64,000 nt of DNA, from NCBI GenBank assembly GCA_022482785.1, contig JAKVON010000005.1, positions 62,001-126,000 of the forward strand, given 5' to 3'. Positions 49,740 to 60,995 of this stretch are shown here, in pieces. How positions within the stretch are numbered: the first letter of the stretch is position 1; every line of letters starts with the position of its first letter. Under the pieces are notes generated by a model. That model was given only the letters and a program-made list of their open reading frames with translations, had not been told where the DNA came from and ran no database searches. Origin of the DNA: Atopobiaceae bacterium. Lineage in GTDB: Bacteria > Actinomycetota > Coriobacteriia > Coriobacteriales > Atopobiaceae. Both the position numbers and the translations under genes were made by a program.

Positions 49740-49825
49740 GCCCGAGTGGCGGAATGGCAGACGCGGAGGTCTCAAAAACCTCTTGTGGCAACACAGTGCG
49801 AGTTCGAGTCTCGCCTCGGGCACCA
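49740..49825 (+). tRNA. tRNA-Leu (anticodon CAA)
   Basis: An 86-nt class II tRNA with encoded CCA. Acceptor arms GCCCGAG and CTCGGGC pair fully. The anticodon stem GAGGT/ACCTC encloses loop CTCAAAA with anticodon CAA, reading UUG. A long variable arm (TTGTGGCAACACAG region) and the T-arm GCGAG-TTCGAGT-CTCGC follow. Its 3' half (49772 onward) is also the antisense end of the serine recombinase gene, so it is the attachment site of the element to its right. Confidence 0.95.
49772..49825. other. Element/chromosome junction (att site) in tRNA-Leu
   Basis: The recombinase frame enters the tRNA gene at 49825 and ends at 49772 with the residues WCPRRDSNSHCVATRGF, the antisense translation of the tRNA. 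The element therefore joins the chromosome at or near the tRNA 3' end. No second copy of the tRNA 3' segment was found in the window, so the far attachment site lies beyond the right edge. Confidence 0.6.
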
Positions 49826-51349
49826 ACTGGATATAAGTCGAACCTTCCCTCCCGGGACGTCTCCCAATTCGGATTCGATCCCGAGGGAGGTCTCGACTTC
49901 CAACAGGGACGTGTCGTCAGCCGAAACGTTCATGATTACCACGGCCTCCGACTCGTAGAGCCATACCTTCGAGACGAAGACGCCGATGAGCTCCGAGTCG
50001 CTCAGATACCCGTTCCGGGCGGCCGCGAAAAAGAGCATGATCTCATCCTCGGTGAGACCGTCCCTCAGGCTCTCAAGCTCATCGATGCGCCTCTCGATGC
50101 CTTCCTCCTGCTTCATGATGGCGTCCATGCGCTCCTTTACCGCCGTATAGGGCATTCCGTCCTCCACGGCCGCAACGAGCCTCTCGCGGGCTCTCTGGAC
50201 CTCTCGAAGCTCCTTGCGGGCCGCAGACACGGACGAACGTCCCGCGTTGTCCCCCTGCCACTCGACATGCCTCTTCGCGAGGTGCTCGCAGAGGACCTGA
50301 TCTGTGAGCATGTCTCGCACCGACTTGCTCACGGCCCCCTCGATCCTCTCCTTCTGCATAGACCCCGAGCACGATTTGGACTTTCCCTTGCATGCGTAGT
50401 AGTGATAGACGGTCCCCTTGCTTCCCCTTGCCATCATCCCGTGCATGGGGTTGCCGCACGTCGCGCACCACAGCTTCCCAGAGAGGTCGTAATCGGCTTT
50501 GGCGGCATTCCTGCGGCGCCGGCCTATTCGCGCCATCACGGCCCTCTTGGTGGCCATGGAGACGATCTCTGGCATTCCTCCCTCGACTCGCACGAGCGGG
50601 ACGGGCGACCCGTCCTGACCAATGACTACGTTGCCGCGACTGTCCCTCTTCTTCCCCCAGCGGTAGACGCCCGCATACTTCTCGCTCTTGAGGATCGACA
50701 GCACGAAGTTGTAGTTCGGCTTCGCCCCCTGCATCGTGCGCACTCCCATTTCGTTCAACTCTTCGGCTATGCGGCACACGCTCTTGCCGGCAAGATAGTC
50801 GGAGTGGATCTTCCGCACGATCTCGGCCTGCCCCTCGTTCACGGTGATCTCGTCGCCCTGATGGCCATATCCGAAAACGGCATCTCCCAGGTACTGGGTC
50901 TTGCGAGCCTTCCCGGACATGCCGCGCATCGTGTCCTCTGCCGACTGTTGGCTTCTGATTTGGGCGAAGAGGGCATTCAGGGCCTTGTTCGAGGTCGCCT
51001 CGATGGAGTCGCCGGTAATGTTCTGCCTGACCGCCTCGAACTCGACTCCCGCCTCTCGCATGATGTGGAGGTAGTAATACTGCTCTTCGATGTTTCGGGC
51101 GAAACGGTCCATCTTCCAGACGAGGATCACGTCGAAGGACCCTGCCTTCGCGTCCTCGATCATCTTGAGGAACTGCGGACGGTCGTCGCTGCGGCCGGTC
51201 ATGGCATAGTCGCAGTATTGGGCGACGATGATGTAGCCCTGGTGCGAAGAACAATAGCTATTCGCCTCGAACAGCTGGTCCTCGATCGACTCGTCTCTCT
51301 GACGGTCGCACGAGAAGCGAGCGTAGACGGCGACCCTCGTCCTCTTCAT
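49772..51349 (-). CDS. Large serine recombinase (integrase)
   Basis: A 525-residue site-specific recombinase. The catalytic domain starts RVAVYARFSCDRQRDESIED with the nucleophilic Ser and continues to VWKMDRFARNIEEQYYYLHI. A recombinase domain (GYGHQGDEITVNEGQAEIVR), a zinc ribbon (LWCATCGNPMHGMM then YYACKGKSKSCSG) and a coiled coil follow. The ATG at 49349+2000, i.e. 51349, has AAGGTGA about 10 bases upstream; a TTG at 51358 is possible. The last 17 or so residues and the stop are supplied by the antisense strand of the tRNA-Leu gene, so its C terminus depends on integration. It likely integrates and excises this element. Confidence 0.93.
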   Translation of the reverse strand: MKRTRVAVYARFSCDRQRDESIEDQLFEANSYCSSHQGYIIVAQYCDYAMTGRSDDRPQFLKMIEDAKAGSFDVILVWKMDRFARNIEEQYYYLHIMREAGVEFEAVRQNITGDSIEATSNKALNALFAQIRSQQSAEDTMRGMSGKARKTQYLGDAVFGYGHQGDEITVNEGQAEIVRKIHSDYLAGKSVCRIAEELNEMGVRTMQGAKPNYNFVLSILKSEKYAGVYRWGKKRDSRGNVVIGQDGSPVPLVRVEGGMPEIVSMATKRAVMARIGRRRRNAAKADYDLSGKLWCATCGNPMHGMMARGSKGTVYHYYACKGKSKSCSGSMQKERIEGAVSKSVRDMLTDQVLCEHLAKRHVEWQGDNAGRSSVSAARKELREVQRARERLVAAVEDGMPYTAVKERMDAIMKQEEGIERRIDELESLRDGLTEDEIMLFFAAARNGYLSDSELIGVFVSKVWLYESEAVVIMNVSADDTSLLEVETSLGIESELGDVPGGKVRLISSWCPRRDSNSHCVATRGF

Positions 51350-51381
51350 GGGATACAATCACCTTGCCTTTCAGCGGGCAG

Positions 51382-51422: not shown

Positions 51423-52406
51423 CTATCTATCGGACTTCCTGGCCATGGCCCTTCTGGCCATGGCCACGCACCCGAATGCCGGCACAGAGATGAAGACGAC
51501 GAAGAGAGGGATCTGCCCGGAAAGGTCTCTACCGAGAACAAGCTCTGACACGAGCCCAAGAATGAAGAAGGCGGAGACGAGACCGAGGACGACGGATGTC
51601 AAGGTGTCCAGCACGATCTTCCACCCGACATTCGCGTGGCTTTCCGCCGCCCTGGAAGTCTTTCTTTCGAGCCTCCTTTGGGCGGTCTCGGACCTCCTCG
51701 CTTCCTTTCTCGCCCTCTTCTCCTCTATCTCGGCCTGCTTCCTCTCCCGCTTCTCGCGCTCTGCTCGCTCGAGGGCCTGCTTCCTCTCCCTCTCCTCTTC
51801 CTCCTGCCTCAGCACCGCGTCTTTCTTCTCCTGGGCGGCAACGTACGGCCTAAGCCACTCGTCGTCGTCCAGTAGGGCGTAGAAGCATCGGATTGTGGCC
51901 ATGGCGTCCTGCGACGAGTCGTGCGGGTCGAACTTGATGTGGTAGTGGTGGCAGGCCGTCGTCAGCTTCACGAAGGTGTAGTCGCCGTAGTAGTCGTTCC
52001 ATTTCCCATGGGCCCTGGCATACTCGGGCATGACGTCGAACCTCTTGGTAGTACCGATTCCGATTCCCGCAGAACCGAGCATCTGGACGTCGAAGTCGAG
52101 ATTGTACCCGACGAGCACATCGGCATTCGAGATGATATCCCTCACCCGGTCGGCGACGTCCTCGACCATCGGCTTGTCTTTGACGTCAGCAGGGGATATC
52201 CCGTTTATCTCCTGGGCCTTAGGCCATCTCTTCCGGTGCGCCGGCTTGATGAGGCTGTCGAACAGGACGTTGCCGTCACCATCCACGAAGGACATCTGCA
52301 GGATCTCGTCCTTGTCGGGGTCAAGGCCGGTCGTCTCCGTATCAACGCAGACGACCTTGTCGTGTGGGACGGACTTGAGCTCATTGACGTCATCCATGTC
52401 CACCAT
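51423..52406 (-). CDS. DEDDh exonuclease with coiled coil and C-terminal membrane helices
   Basis: A 327-residue protein. Residues about 15-190 form a DnaQ/RNase T-like 3'-5' exonuclease with all key residues: VVCVDTETTGL (D22, E24), GYNLDFDVQML and HDSSQDA (HxxxxD). Residues about 190-255 are a highly charged coiled coil (EEEERERKQALERAEREKRE). The C terminus has two hydrophobic helices (DTLTSVVLGLVSAFFILGLV and IPLFVVFISVPAFGCVAMA). The nuclease would thus be tethered to the membrane inside the cell, which is unusual. The ATG at 52406 has GAAGGTG upstream. It lies between the recombinase and repressor, in a position where phages often keep accessory genes. Confidence 0.85.
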   Translation of the reverse strand: MVDMDDVNELKSVPHDKVVCVDTETTGLDPDKDEILQMSFVDGDGNVLFDSLIKPAHRKRWPKAQEINGISPADVKDKPMVEDVADRVRDIISNADVLVGYNLDFDVQMLGSAGIGIGTTKRFDVMPEYARAHGKWNDYYGDYTFVKLTTACHHYHIKFDPHDSSQDAMATIRCFYALLDDDEWLRPYVAAQEKKDAVLRQEEEERERKQALERAEREKRERKQAEIEEKRARKEARRSETAQRRLERKTSRAAESHANVGWKIVLDTLTSVVLGLVSAFFILGLVSELVLGRDLSGQIPLFVVFISVPAFGCVAMARRAMARKSDR

Positions 52407-52423
52407 GGGCGCACCTTCAATCA

Positions 52424-52786
52424 CTAGGCGATCTTCTCGCTCACACCAGTCGGAGTATCGGGTTCGTTTCGCCCCTCACCGAGCCTGATCCCCCTGACGG
52501 AATTTGCCGCCGCATCTTTCCCGGAGTCGCTCAAAAGCTCATAGTCCCTGTTCATAGACCTTTGCCTGTTGTCCGAGAAGGATCCGACATAGTCGGTCCT
52601 GCCAACAAGCTCGTCGAGAGAGCAGTCGAGCAGATCTGCAATCACACAAGCCTGCTCGAGGCTCATCATCCGTTCTCCCGCTTCCCATGACTTGATTCTT
52701 CTCTCGGGAATTCCGAGCGCATCGGAAAAGTCTTTTCTCGAGGCGAATCCAGACTCTTTTCGAAGCCTTAGTAGCTGGAGTTCCAT
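52424..52786 (-). CDS. Phage-type XRE repressor
   Basis: A 120-residue protein with an N-terminal helix-turn-helix (RKDFSDALGIPERRIKSWEA, then RMMSLEQACVIADLLDCSLD) and a 45-residue tail without a recognisable peptidase domain. Divergently transcribed from a similar small HTH gene across a 174-bp region with four operator-like sites, it is inferred to be the immunity repressor. A -35/-10 pair TTGAAC-N17-TACGAT reads leftward toward it. GGAGAGCT precedes the ATG. Confidence 0.85.
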   Translation of the reverse strand: MELQLLRLRKESGFASRKDFSDALGIPERRIKSWEAGERMMSLEQACVIADLLDCSLDELVGRTDYVGSFSDNRQRSMNRDYELLSDSGKDAAANSVRGIRLGEGRNEPDTPTGVSEKIA

Positions 52787-52815
52787 AGCTCTCCAATCGC
52801 CTGTTTACATGCGAA

Positions 52816-52844
52816 ATCGTACACGCAGAGTGACTTTAGTTCAA
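52816..52844 (-). promoter_or_regulatory. Leftward repressor promoter with embedded operator
   Basis: On the minus strand TTGAAC (52839-52844) and TACGAT (52816-52821) are separated by exactly 17 bases. The spacer holds CACTCTGCGTG (plus-strand positions 52822-52832), one mismatch from the operator in the rightward promoter, so the regulator could occlude its own promoter. Confidence 0.65.
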
Positions 52845-52862
52845 CCTACGGACACAAATTGA

Positions 52863-52891
52863 TTGACACGGCCACTTTGCGTGTCTATCCT
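52863..52891 (+). promoter_or_regulatory. Rightward early promoter with embedded operator
   Basis: A consensus TTGACA (52863-52868), 17-base spacer, and TATCCT (52886-52891). Operator CACTTTGCGTG occupies 52873-52883 in the spacer. It drives the Cro-like gene and the early gene train. Confidence 0.7.
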
Positions 52892-52945
52892 CTGGACTGT
52901 AATCACTTAAAGTGTCCCTACATGGAGGGGAAGTCACTTTAAGCG
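52873..52945. promoter_or_regulatory. Three operators at exact 31-bp spacing
   Basis: CACTTTGCGTG (52873), CACTTAAAGTG (52904, a perfect palindrome) and CACTTTAAGCG (52935), each followed by TC, start 31 bp apart, i.e. three helical turns. With the leftward copy at 52822 this gives four sites of consensus CACTTNAAGTG-like sequence. Confidence 0.7.
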
Positions 52946-52960: not shown

Positions 52961-53194
52961 ATGGACCGCAAAGAGGTTGGCCGGAGGATAAGGAGCTGGA
53001 TCGTCGACTCTGGGAAGTCTCAGGAACAGGTTGCAGAGGAGATGGGCGTCTCGTTCGGAGCCCTGAAAAGCTGGATTTACGGGAACCGGACGATTTCCCT
53101 CGACCAAGCCGTTCTGATAGCCAACTACTTCCAGAAGCCGCTAGACGAGCTTGCTTGTCGCAGGCGCGCGAAGGACATGGCGATCGTCTCATGA
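52961..53194 (+). CDS. Cro-like small HTH protein
   Basis: A 77-residue XRE protein: KSQEQVAEEMGVSFGALKSW is the helix-turn-helix, followed by RTISLDQAVLIANYFQKPLD. An almost ideal AGGAGGTGAGTA stands before the ATG. It is the first gene rightward of the operator region, opposite the repressor, the usual place for Cro. Its stop overlaps the next start (ATGA). Confidence 0.85.
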   Translation: MDRKEVGRRIRSWIVDSGKSQEQVAEEMGVSFGALKSWIYGNRTISLDQAVLIANYFQKPLDELACRRRAKDMAIVS

Positions 53195-58101: not shown

Positions 58102-58294
58102 AGGGATCGTCTGCGACCCGAAGATGGTCGCATTCAGGCATGCGTGCGTGGAGGTCGTGACGAACGACTGGCATTCGCTCGAAGAGGTCAAATGGGATGG
58201 ATCGACGTTCGCTGGCTGGTCCGATGACGAGGAGTTCAGGTCAGAGCTCGGGAGATTCATCGTCAAGAGGGACGTCGGTGGGTTCGATGCCTAA
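58091..58294 (+). CDS. Hypothetical protein (67 residues)
   Basis: MGSKGIVCDPKMVAFRHACV, then WDGSTFAGWSDDEEFRSELG. GGAGGTG stands 6 bases before the ATG at 58091; an ATG at 58076 is in frame without a site. Its stop overlaps the tyrosine integrase start by 8 bases, so it might be an excisionase-like helper by position, though no HTH is visible. Confidence 0.55.
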   Translation: MGSKGIVCDPKMVAFRHACVEVVTNDWHSLEEVKWDGSTFAGWSDDEEFRSELGRFIVKRDVGGFDA

Positions 58295-59483
58295 GGTCGT
58301 CATCAAGCACGACAGGGACGGGATCAGGTTCTGTCAGCCATACCTGGGTATCAACCGGGTCACCGGAAGACCGCTCCGTCCATACAAGCGCTTCCCCCAG
58401 GCGGAATCAGACGAGGAGGCGGCCGTCCTCGCAGAGCGGTGGATGGAGGGCATCACCGCTGCGTCGAAAGTCGGGACCAGCAGGAGGTTCGGAGAGCTCA
58501 TGGAGCTCTACGTCTCCGGGCTCGATCGCACGGGGACGAGCCCCAACACGATCAGGACCTACAGGACGATCCTGAGGTGCTACGTGGGGCCCAGGATAGG
58601 GTCCAGGACGATAGACGACCTGACCCCCATGGACTTCGCCATGCTACAGGATGACGTCCTGGAGCATGGATCGAAGACCGGTGGGAGGATATCGGGATCT
58701 ACCGTCTCGCGCATGCACTGGTTCCTGTCCGGGGCCTTCAAATACTTCTGCTCGATCGGACTTGCCGACTCGAACCCGGTCTCGATGATTGACAAGCCAT
58801 CTCCAGGATCAGGAGACGCGACGGCCTACGACTGGGAGGAGTTCGAAGCCCTAAGCACGACCCTGGAGTCTGAGCTGGAAGACAGCTCTTCCACCAGATC
58901 TGCCAGATACAGGAGAAACCGTCTGATGGCAGCTTGGATAGCCCTTCACACGGGACTCAGGGTAGGAGAGGTATGCGCGCTCAGGAGATGCGACGTGATC
59001 GTTCCGAGGTCGATGGTGTCCGTCAGCGCGACCGTCGTCGAGATGAAGGGAAAAGGCGCCGTTAGGAAGCCGATCCCGAAGACTTTGACGTCCAGGAGGA
59101 ACGTCTCCGTGACGAAGTCAGACCTCGAGACGATAAAGGTCCATGTCGACTGGCAGAGATCGTATCTAGGGAAATCAGGAAAGAACACACCGATCTGCAC
59201 CGTGGACGGATCGTTCATGCGCCCATCGACCGTCTCACGAGCGTTCTCGGAGATCAGGGACGAGATAGGGCTGCCGCCCGACACCAGCTTCCACACGCTT
59301 CGCCACACGCACGCCACGTGGCTTCTCGTGTCCGGGATGGACCCGAAGACCGTGGCGGAGAGGCTTGGACACGCGAACGTCACGACCCTACTGCGTCTCT
59401 ACGCACACGTCCTCCCGGGACGAGATGCCCAGGCCGCGGAGGCGTTCTCAAGCCTAAGCGAGAGGGCGGTGAAAGGACTGTGA
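58287..59483 (+). CDS. Tyrosine recombinase (phage integrase family)
   Basis: A 398-residue recombinase. The N-terminal part has an arm-type region and a SAM-like core-binding domain (RRFGELMELYVSGLDRTGTS). The catalytic domain has all key residues: Arg in HTGLRVGEVCAL, HxxR in SFHTLRHTHATWLL, His in RLGHANVTTLL and the nucleophile in RLYAHVLPG. It is transcribed with the early genes in the middle of the element, far from the tRNA junction, while a serine recombinase sits at the junction. It may belong to a nested element or act as a resolvase. Confidence 0.92.
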   Translation: MPKVVIKHDRDGIRFCQPYLGINRVTGRPLRPYKRFPQAESDEEAAVLAERWMEGITAASKVGTSRRFGELMELYVSGLDRTGTSPNTIRTYRTILRCYVGPRIGSRTIDDLTPMDFAMLQDDVLEHGSKTGGRISGSTVSRMHWFLSGAFKYFCSIGLADSNPVSMIDKPSPGSGDATAYDWEEFEALSTTLESELEDSSSTRSARYRRNRLMAAWIALHTGLRVGEVCALRRCDVIVPRSMVSVSATVVEMKGKGAVRKPIPKTLTSRRNVSVTKSDLETIKVHVDWQRSYLGKSGKNTPICTVDGSFMRPSTVSRAFSEIRDEIGLPPDTSFHTLRHTHATWLLVSGMDPKTVAERLGHANVTTLLRLYAHVLPGRDAQAAEAFSSLSERAVKGL

Positions 59484-59516: not shown

Positions 59517-60995
59517 GATCGTGTCGCGAAAGTTGGTGTAGGCACGTTTCCCAGCTAGGTACTTCGGGCTAAGGGGAACGGCCATCGCCCTAGAATCTCA
59601 AACAGCGACGTATTGAGACTAGGAGAGGCGATGACCGCTATGGCAATCATAGGCGATGCGCGGGATGGTGTGACACCGGGGCTGCCCCGGTTCGATGACG
59701 GGATGGTGAATGTCGGCGAGCTGGCCAGGACGCTCGCCGAGTCGATCGTCAACGAGGTGATGGACGTCGAGGCCGACCTCGAGTGCGAGGGAGGCAACCA
59801 GAGGAACGGCTACCGCGAGCGCTCGCTGCTGACGAGCGTCGGCACGATAACCCTACGCATACCCAAGCTCAGACGCGGGTCCTACTTCCCCGAGGACGTG
59901 GTGGAGCGCTACTCCAGGACGGACCGAGCGATCGTGGCGGCCGTGGCCGAGATGGTCACCTGCGGGGTCTCGACGAGGAAGGTCGAGCGCGTGGCCGCCA
60001 AGCTCGGTGTCGACCGGCTCGGCAAGGACGCCGTCTCCCGCATGTGCGCCACGCTCGACGAGACGGTCACCGACCTGCAGGGCCGCGTCTTCCATGACCT
60101 CCGGTTCCCGTACCTGTGGCTCGACGCCACCTACATCAAGGCCAGAGAGGGCGGGCACGTCAGCTCGGTCGCGGTGGTGACGGCGATAGCGGCCGCCGAC
60201 GACGGACACCGATACCTCGTGGGCGTCGACGCCGTCGACACGGAGTCGTACGCGTCATGGCTGCTCTTCCTGCGGGGCCTGCGCGACCGCGGCGTCACGG
60301 ACACGCTCTGTGTGACTTCCGACGCGCACGAGGGCCTGAGGCACGCCATCGAGGAGACGTTCCCGGGTGCCGCCTGGCAGCGCTGCATCGTCCACCTCGA
60401 GCGAAACTGCTGCTCGCTCGCCAGGACGAGGCACCAGCGCGCCCTCGTGGGGCAGCTCCTGTCCGCCGTCTTCGCGGAGCGGGACCCAGCGCTGGTCCGC
60501 GAGCTCTACCACCTGGCGGCCGACGAGGTCGGTGCCATCTGCCCCGCGGCAGGCGAGCTTCTGGAGGATGCCGAGGCGGACGCGCTCGCCTACCTCGACT
60601 TCCCCTACGAGCACCACATACGCCTCAGGACGAACAACGTGCAGGAGCGCACCAACCGTGAGATCAAGCGCAGGAGCCGCGTCGTGCAGGTGTTCCCGTC
60701 GAGGAGGAGCCTCCTCAGGTACGTCGGTGCCGCCCTTGCCGAGATGGACGAGGCCTGGCAGTCCAGGCGCTGGTTCTCCGCAGGGTCCGTCCAGGAGGCC
60801 TTCGAGCGGGAGGAGCAGAGGAGACCTGCACCAGCACCGACCTACGAGGGGACGGCGGCCGAACACGCGGCTGCCATCATCCGGCTGGTGAAGGCCGACG
60901 GCGTTGACTCGAGGAGGAGGGCGGCATAGGATGCGTTAGTAGCAGGCGGGTTCACGGGCGAAGGCACCGCTTACACCAACTTTCAAGACGCTACC
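59517..60995 (+). mobile_element. IS256-family insertion sequence (1479 bp)
   Basis: One transposase gene flanked by terminal inverted repeats of about 27 bp: left end 59517-59543, right end 60969-60995, 21 of 27 matching, including an identical 13-bp core GAAAGTTGGTGTA. A 9-bp duplication CTGAGTGCG borders both ends, in the 8-9 bp range of IS256 elements. The intact ends, duplication and open frame suggest recent, possibly still active, insertion. Confidence 0.85.
59631..60929 (+). CDS. IS256-family (mutator-type) transposase
   Basis: A 432-residue DDE transposase. GNQRNGYRERSLLTSVGTIT is the zinc/HTH region; catalytic residues are the Asp in LWLDATYIKAREGG, the Asp in CVTSDAHEGLRHAI and the Glu in NNVQERTNREIKRRSRVVQV. 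CIVHLERNCC is the conserved C/H motif between them. The ATG at 59631 has AGGAGAGG close upstream; a TTG at 59613 is in frame. GC content is higher than in the surrounding element genes, as in the host core. Confidence 0.93.
   Translation: MTAMAIIGDARDGVTPGLPRFDDGMVNVGELARTLAESIVNEVMDVEADLECEGGNQRNGYRERSLLTSVGTITLRIPKLRRGSYFPEDVVERYSRTDRAIVAAVAEMVTCGVSTRKVERVAAKLGVDRLGKDAVSRMCATLDETVTDLQGRVFHDLRFPYLWLDATYIKAREGGHVSSVAVVTAIAAADDGHRYLVGVDAVDTESYASWLLFLRGLRDRGVTDTLCVTSDAHEGLRHAIEETFPGAAWQRCIVHLERNCCSLARTRHQRALVGQLLSAVFAERDPALVRELYHLAADEVGAICPAAGELLEDAEADALAYLDFPYEHHIRLRTNNVQERTNREIKRRSRVVQVFPSRRSLLRYVGAALAEMDEAWQSRRWFSAGSVQEAFEREEQRRPAPAPTYEGTAAEHAAAIIRLVKADGVDSRRRAA

Follow-up and report, generated by a model that had tools for sequence, protein, structure and literature searches.

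In phage lambda, operators lie over both promoters of the switch. The OR regions of lambda, P22 and 434 resemble the locus described here in that the repressor and Cro genes diverge, both promoters carry operators and the sites are graded. A lambda-type OR contains three sites at about 23-24 bp between the promoters, whereas the present locus contains four at 51/31/31 bp, with the extra sites downstream in the lytic leader rather than between the promoters. No counterpart of the second lambda cluster (OL) was found here in 60 kb, and the repressor, unlike that of lambda, is short and without a peptidase domain. Measured from the predicted start of the leftward promoter P_rep, the centre of the second site (O2) would be about 69 bp upstream, unlike lambda OR2. 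The initial annotation had called the design different from that of lambda, which is true of the ladder of sites, the single cluster and the short peptidase-free repressor, but the operator over each promoter is lambda-like.

Phi11 has three homologous operators (PMC3991615). In TP901-1, OR is central, OL lies over PL and OD is located in distal mor, and this topology is common to phages with differing operators (PMC7250872). The CI/MOR switches of TP901-1 and phi13 share with the present locus a divergent repressor and small HTH protein, an operator over the lytic promoter, and a topology that persists as operator sequences differ (PMC7250872, PMC8516035). The TP901-1 CI is also peptidase-free, like the repressor here (PMC7250872). 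TP901-1 has its central OR and an OD in mor, whereas the present locus has one site in each promoter spacer and two in the leader. The rep/tec switch of Lactobacillus delbrueckii phage mv4 likewise has an operator between the lytic -35 and -10 boxes (PMC10848424, citing Coddeville 2007). There mv4 is described with single independent operators, whereas the sites here are four and phased. Operators within promoter spacers are already known (mv4, lambda); what is new is the downstream ladder and its conservation. The present switch falls outside both the lambda and the TP901-1 types, because defining features of both were looked for and not found. No lysogeny switch from Coriobacteriia, a class of gut and rumen actinobacteria, was found described in literature searches.

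Candidate operators and promoters

The window, that is, the whole stretch of 64,000 nucleotides of Atopobiaceae DNA that was analysed, encodes a lysogenic repressor candidate of the XRE/HTH_3 type, Rep (120 aa; 52424-52786, minus strand; Pfam HTH_3, E=8e-08). Divergent from it is the gene for a Cro-like HTH_3 protein of 77 aa, the first of the lytic operon (52961-53194, plus strand; Pfam HTH_3, E=8.9e-11). The intergenic spacer is AT-richer than its surroundings. All four candidate operators, given here on the plus strand, are located between these two genes. O1 (52822-52832; CACGCAGAGTG, minus strand CACTCTGCGTG) lies in the spacer of the predicted leftward promoter P_rep, and O2 (52873-52883; CACTTTGCGTG) in that of the predicted rightward lytic promoter P_cro. 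O3 (52904-52914; CACTTAAAGTG) falls within the predicted early cro transcript, and O4 (52935-52945; CACTTTAAGCG) in the cro leader, just 5' of the ribosome-binding site. Their centres, at 52827, 52878, 52909 and 52940, are separated by steps of 51/31/31 bp. Each site is an 11-bp odd near-palindrome with the half-site C[AG]C[GT][CT], and O3 is a perfect palindrome, CACTT-N-AAGTG. Likeness to O2 is smaller for O3 and O4, at about 77% over 13 nt.

P_cro (52863-52891, plus strand; TTGACA-17-TATCCT) matches 10/12 consensus positions and is the sole promoter returned by a consensus scan. P_rep (52816-52844, minus strand; TTGAAC-17-TACGAT) matches 8/12, and was accepted as a promoter because its hexamers recur in relatives. 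The description of both as consensus promoters with 17-bp spacing thus suits P_cro and is generous for P_rep. Each spacer holds one candidate operator, as had been claimed, but the offsets differ: O1 is flush with the -10 box of P_rep and O2 is 2 bp away from that of P_cro, so that the two placements are not identical. The predicted transcription starts lie near 52809 on the left and near 52898 on the right, which places O3 at about +6 to +16 and O4 at about +37 to +47 of the cro transcript. At 10.5 bp per turn, 30, 31 and 32 bp correspond to 2.86, 2.95 and 3.05 helical turns and the 51-bp step to 4.86 turns; the same-face spacing seen by the initial annotation is therefore approximate. The 31-bp steps that it called exact are so here, but relatives use 30-32 bp. 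The surroundings of the switch showed no SOS box.

The layout was scored as four 11-mers in either orientation within a preset range of distances (d1, 47-55; d2 and d3, 28-34). The locus scores 52, and in 2000 dinucleotide-preserving shuffles (mean 36.6, sd 1.8, maximum 46) this value was never matched. The four sites first noticed in the sequence are confirmed at their stated positions. A position weight matrix was trained on this switch and on one relative (L002). Its best four matches in 60 kb of the contig are O1-O4 (scores 13.9-17.7; next 11.7). Since these sites belong to the training set, the ranking informs on the absence of other sites: no comparable second cluster was detected in the 60 kb covering the prophage, and no site was found between the two -35 boxes or inside cro. 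A looser IUPAC pattern is not rare, with 15 matches in 64 kb against 16 expected. The unusual feature is the clustering and spacing of the sites, rather than the frequency of the pattern.

Conservation of the layout among relatives

Rep homologues were gathered from viral contigs as well as from genomes sharing the family, order or class; named relatives among the records are Olsenella, Eggerthellaceae and Atopobiaceae, which point to Coriobacteriia as the probable host class. Matches of Rep in phage and plasmid records, partial and at 33-38% identity, were left out of the comparison. A total of 51 non-redundant regions upstream of Rep homologues were scored uniformly against shuffles. The present switch reaches z=9.7, and three other regions exceed 7: L071 (steps 52/32/31, z=7.8), L053 (51/30/30, z=7.3) and L002, which is the same as L007 (51/30/30, z=7.2). 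A further switch, L121, was found via its Cro homologue, its rep lying off the contig end. It has steps of 51/31/31 and a different, 15-bp operator, GATACGTnnTGTATC; its z is 7.0 when scored with 11-bp sites and 10.1 with 15-bp sites. L070 is weaker, with steps of 51/32/31 in the 15-bp form and z=3.7 in the 11-bp test. Unconserved spacing in close relatives had been named at the outset as grounds for rejecting the switch; the spacing is conserved in L002, L053, L071 and L121, and less clearly in L070.

Sequence conservation follows the layout. Rep identity is about 50% among this switch and its four-site relatives, and Cro homologues encoded opposite Rep share 52-57% identity in L007 and L053 and 40% in L071. 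In regions of this switch, L002 and L053 aligned on the layout, identity is 77-80% in the sites and 71-79% in the promoter hexamers, against 30-34% in the other 56 intergenic positions, which is close to unrelated DNA. In L002, L053 and L071, O1 fills the space between the hexamers of a TTGAAN...TAnnnT promoter and O2 that of a TTGnnn...TATnnT promoter, each spacer being 17 bp long. Across this switch, L002 and L053, O1 reads CACGCAGAG[TCA]G (10/11 positions the same) and O4 reads CACTT[TA]AAG[CA]G, the O4 of L002 and of L053 matching that of this switch at 9-10/11 positions. The place of O4 is kept in L071, and the exact 31-bp spacing in L121. The O2 of this switch is the exact reverse complement of that in L002, a flip that a symmetric dimer would be expected not to notice and that would fit graded sites. 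What the sequences show is the sites, the promoter-like hexamers and the order of the genes, together with a geometry and a place of each site that are conserved.

In two relatives the operators have been replaced as a set with the geometry kept, namely in L071 (CACGTnnnGTG) and in L121. The recognition helix of the L071 Rep also differs (VPERQIKAW vs IPERRIKSW). A coordinated change of letters at fixed geometry is what an operator set co-evolving with its repressor would predict. Because phages of the same bacterial class keep the geometry with different operator sequences, the layout as such seems to have a function.

This ruler does not hold everywhere: elsewhere in the Rep family the layout differs or is missing. 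A three-site version near 51/31-32 without a clear O4 is present in several more distant relatives, among them L080 (52/32), L092 (51/33) and L130; L073 has 63/21, L091 has 36/30, and some loci have no layout. The four-site layout is absent from the Clostridia loci of the genome scan and from L006, L122, L128 and L129. A free scan of distances from 20 to 70 bp found 31/31, 32/31, 51/30 and 52/32 again among the better loci, and returned other layouts as well. The pooled histogram of distances across loci has peaks at 20, 32, 53, 57, 62 and 84 bp, which supports steps of 31-32 and 84 (52+32) bp, yet shows other layouts in the family. L008, with a displaced O4 (30/21), was considered as a counter-example, but its cro-like gene appears frame-broken. 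An extra small gene whose product has a hydrophobic C-terminus lies between switch and cro in L008 (1-1500) and L121 (175-669). L006 carries three Rep-like genes in tandem within one 4-kb contig. Terminases are present in the virus records of L053 and L002. In the genome with L071 (G283) nothing matched the terminase family phrog_9, so that switch may come from a satellite, from a defective prophage or from a phage whose terminase is of another kind.

Proposed working of the switch and alternative readings

No S24/LexA-like autocleavage or other peptidase domain was detected in the 120-aa Rep, which matched HTH families alone. Against the RstR-type repressor model NF041951 it scores 39.4 bits, below the curated cut-off of 80. 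The AlphaFold model of Rep (pLDDT 87.7) has an N-terminal HTH followed by a C-terminal two-helix hairpin (residues 73-83 and 87-103). Its Foldseek neighbours include the DNA-binding domain of ImmR (7t8i), SinR and the phi106 repressor (9sf2, with AimX). ICEBs1 ImmR and the phi106 repressor have a similar N-terminal HTH fold, with weak match E-values, and the phi106 match extends loosely over most of Rep. Most matches have E>0.001, and just the best one, 3op9, falls below this value. The helical hairpins of SinR serve dimerisation or partner binding. The helical hook of TP901-1 CI serves the same purposes (PMC7250872). In view of these roles in both proteins, the switch could plausibly be induced by a small antirepressor, which might be Cro itself.

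We consider it highly probable that the locus is an immunity switch in which Rep represses P_cro via O2, with O3 and O4 as a phased ladder, and in which O1 governs rep. Rep made from P_rep would bind O2 as a dimer and cover P_cro. O3 and O4, spaced at three turns within the cro leader, would add Rep molecules on roughly the same face of the DNA. These could strengthen or sharpen repression through side-by-side contacts, by obstructing the polymerase at the start and on the first part of its path, or both. At O1, on the -10 box of P_rep, Rep may limit its own synthesis, or Cro may silence rep in the lytic state. Cro, the product of the first lytic gene, would compete for the same sites or act on Rep. 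Binding by Rep and Cro is inferred, and likewise which protein occupies which site, the cooperativity and the induction. The core of the initial annotation, a Rep/Cro switch with four operators that mask both promoters, is well supported by comparison with relatives; the cooperative binding that it suggested is a matter of inference.

Several alternative readings were weighed against this one. Chance repeats in an AT-rich intergenic region could be suspected from the composition of the spacer and from the excess of repeats at many spacings in the wider locus set. With 0/2000 shuffles reaching the score and the layout recurring in diverged relatives, this explanation is refuted and its probability is negligible. 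O3 and O4, palindromic within the predicted transcript, might instead act as RNA hairpins of the cro leader and not as DNA sites. This is very improbable: O1 and O2, which lie upstream of the predicted starts, contain the same word in register with O3 and O4, and the O2 orientation flipped relative to L002 is neutral for a DNA site bound by a dimer.

It is less improbable, but still unlikely, that O1 and O2, perhaps with O3, are the sole operators, O4 being a chance or relic copy and cooperativity playing no part. The three-site loci L080, L092 and L130 would suit such a reading, but O4 is retained in place and sequence in L002 and L053, in place in L071 and at 31 bp in L121. Somewhat more weight, though well short of an even chance, is given to a switch of the TP901-1/phi13 CI-MOR type, in which the Cro-like protein would act mainly on Rep, binding it as an antirepressor or co-repressor instead of competing for operators. 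Rep is without a peptidase domain, as reported for TP901-1 CI, and the TP901-1-type topology stays while the operator sequence changes (PMC7250872). There is also a loose resemblance of the Rep hairpin to SinR and to the phi106 repressor, both of them under the control of small partner proteins. Speaking against this type, no site was seen between the two -35 boxes or, in the motif scan, inside cro, unlike OR and OD of TP901-1, and Cro matched no MOR-type family.

A broader proposal, less likely than not, can be put forward tentatively. The 51/31/31 spacing might be a selected ruler in phages of one bacterial class, on which a chain of repressor dimers, joined through their hairpin domains, would extend on a single face of the DNA from P_cro into the leader of the lytic operon. 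New immunity types could then arise by free exchange of the operator sequence and the recognition helix. The loci form a natural switch set with one geometry and several operator alphabets, in which it can be tested whether spacing or sequence carries the decision. The set bears on how a phage changes its immunity type without rebuilding its switch, and the switches may be usable as orthogonal promoter parts.

The surrounding prophage

The gene content identifies the switch as the immunity region of a siphovirus-type prophage next to a tRNA-Leu gene (49740-49825), which ends the leftward gene set. The reading frame of a serine integrase of this set (49740-51358) enters the tRNA-Leu gene, the last residues of the integrase being encoded by antisense tRNA-Leu. 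This overlap probably marks the left attachment site. No direct repeat of the tRNA-Leu region of at least 13 nt was found within the 60 kb read, and no ImmA-type or arbitrium gene was seen adjoining the switch.

To the right of the switch are small genes and genes encoding a ParB-like protein, a replication-initiator-like protein, a tyrosine-type integrase and an IS256-like transposase. The tyrosine-type integrase (58197-59483), within the rightward lytic set, is a second integrase besides the serine integrase and is perhaps a nested element or relic. The IS256-like transposase gene (59613-60929) is inserted between the early and the structural genes; lytic growth of the prophage may no longer run to completion. 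Farther downstream on the same contig are genes encoding the small and large terminase subunits, a head protease, an HK97-type capsid protein, a major tail protein and a tape measure protein. In the leftward set, directly after rep, a DnaQ-like exonuclease with a hydrophobic C-terminal stretch is encoded (51423-52424), possibly by a prophage accessory gene. Homologues of this exonuclease (41% identity) are present in L040 and L144 and absent from the other switches examined.
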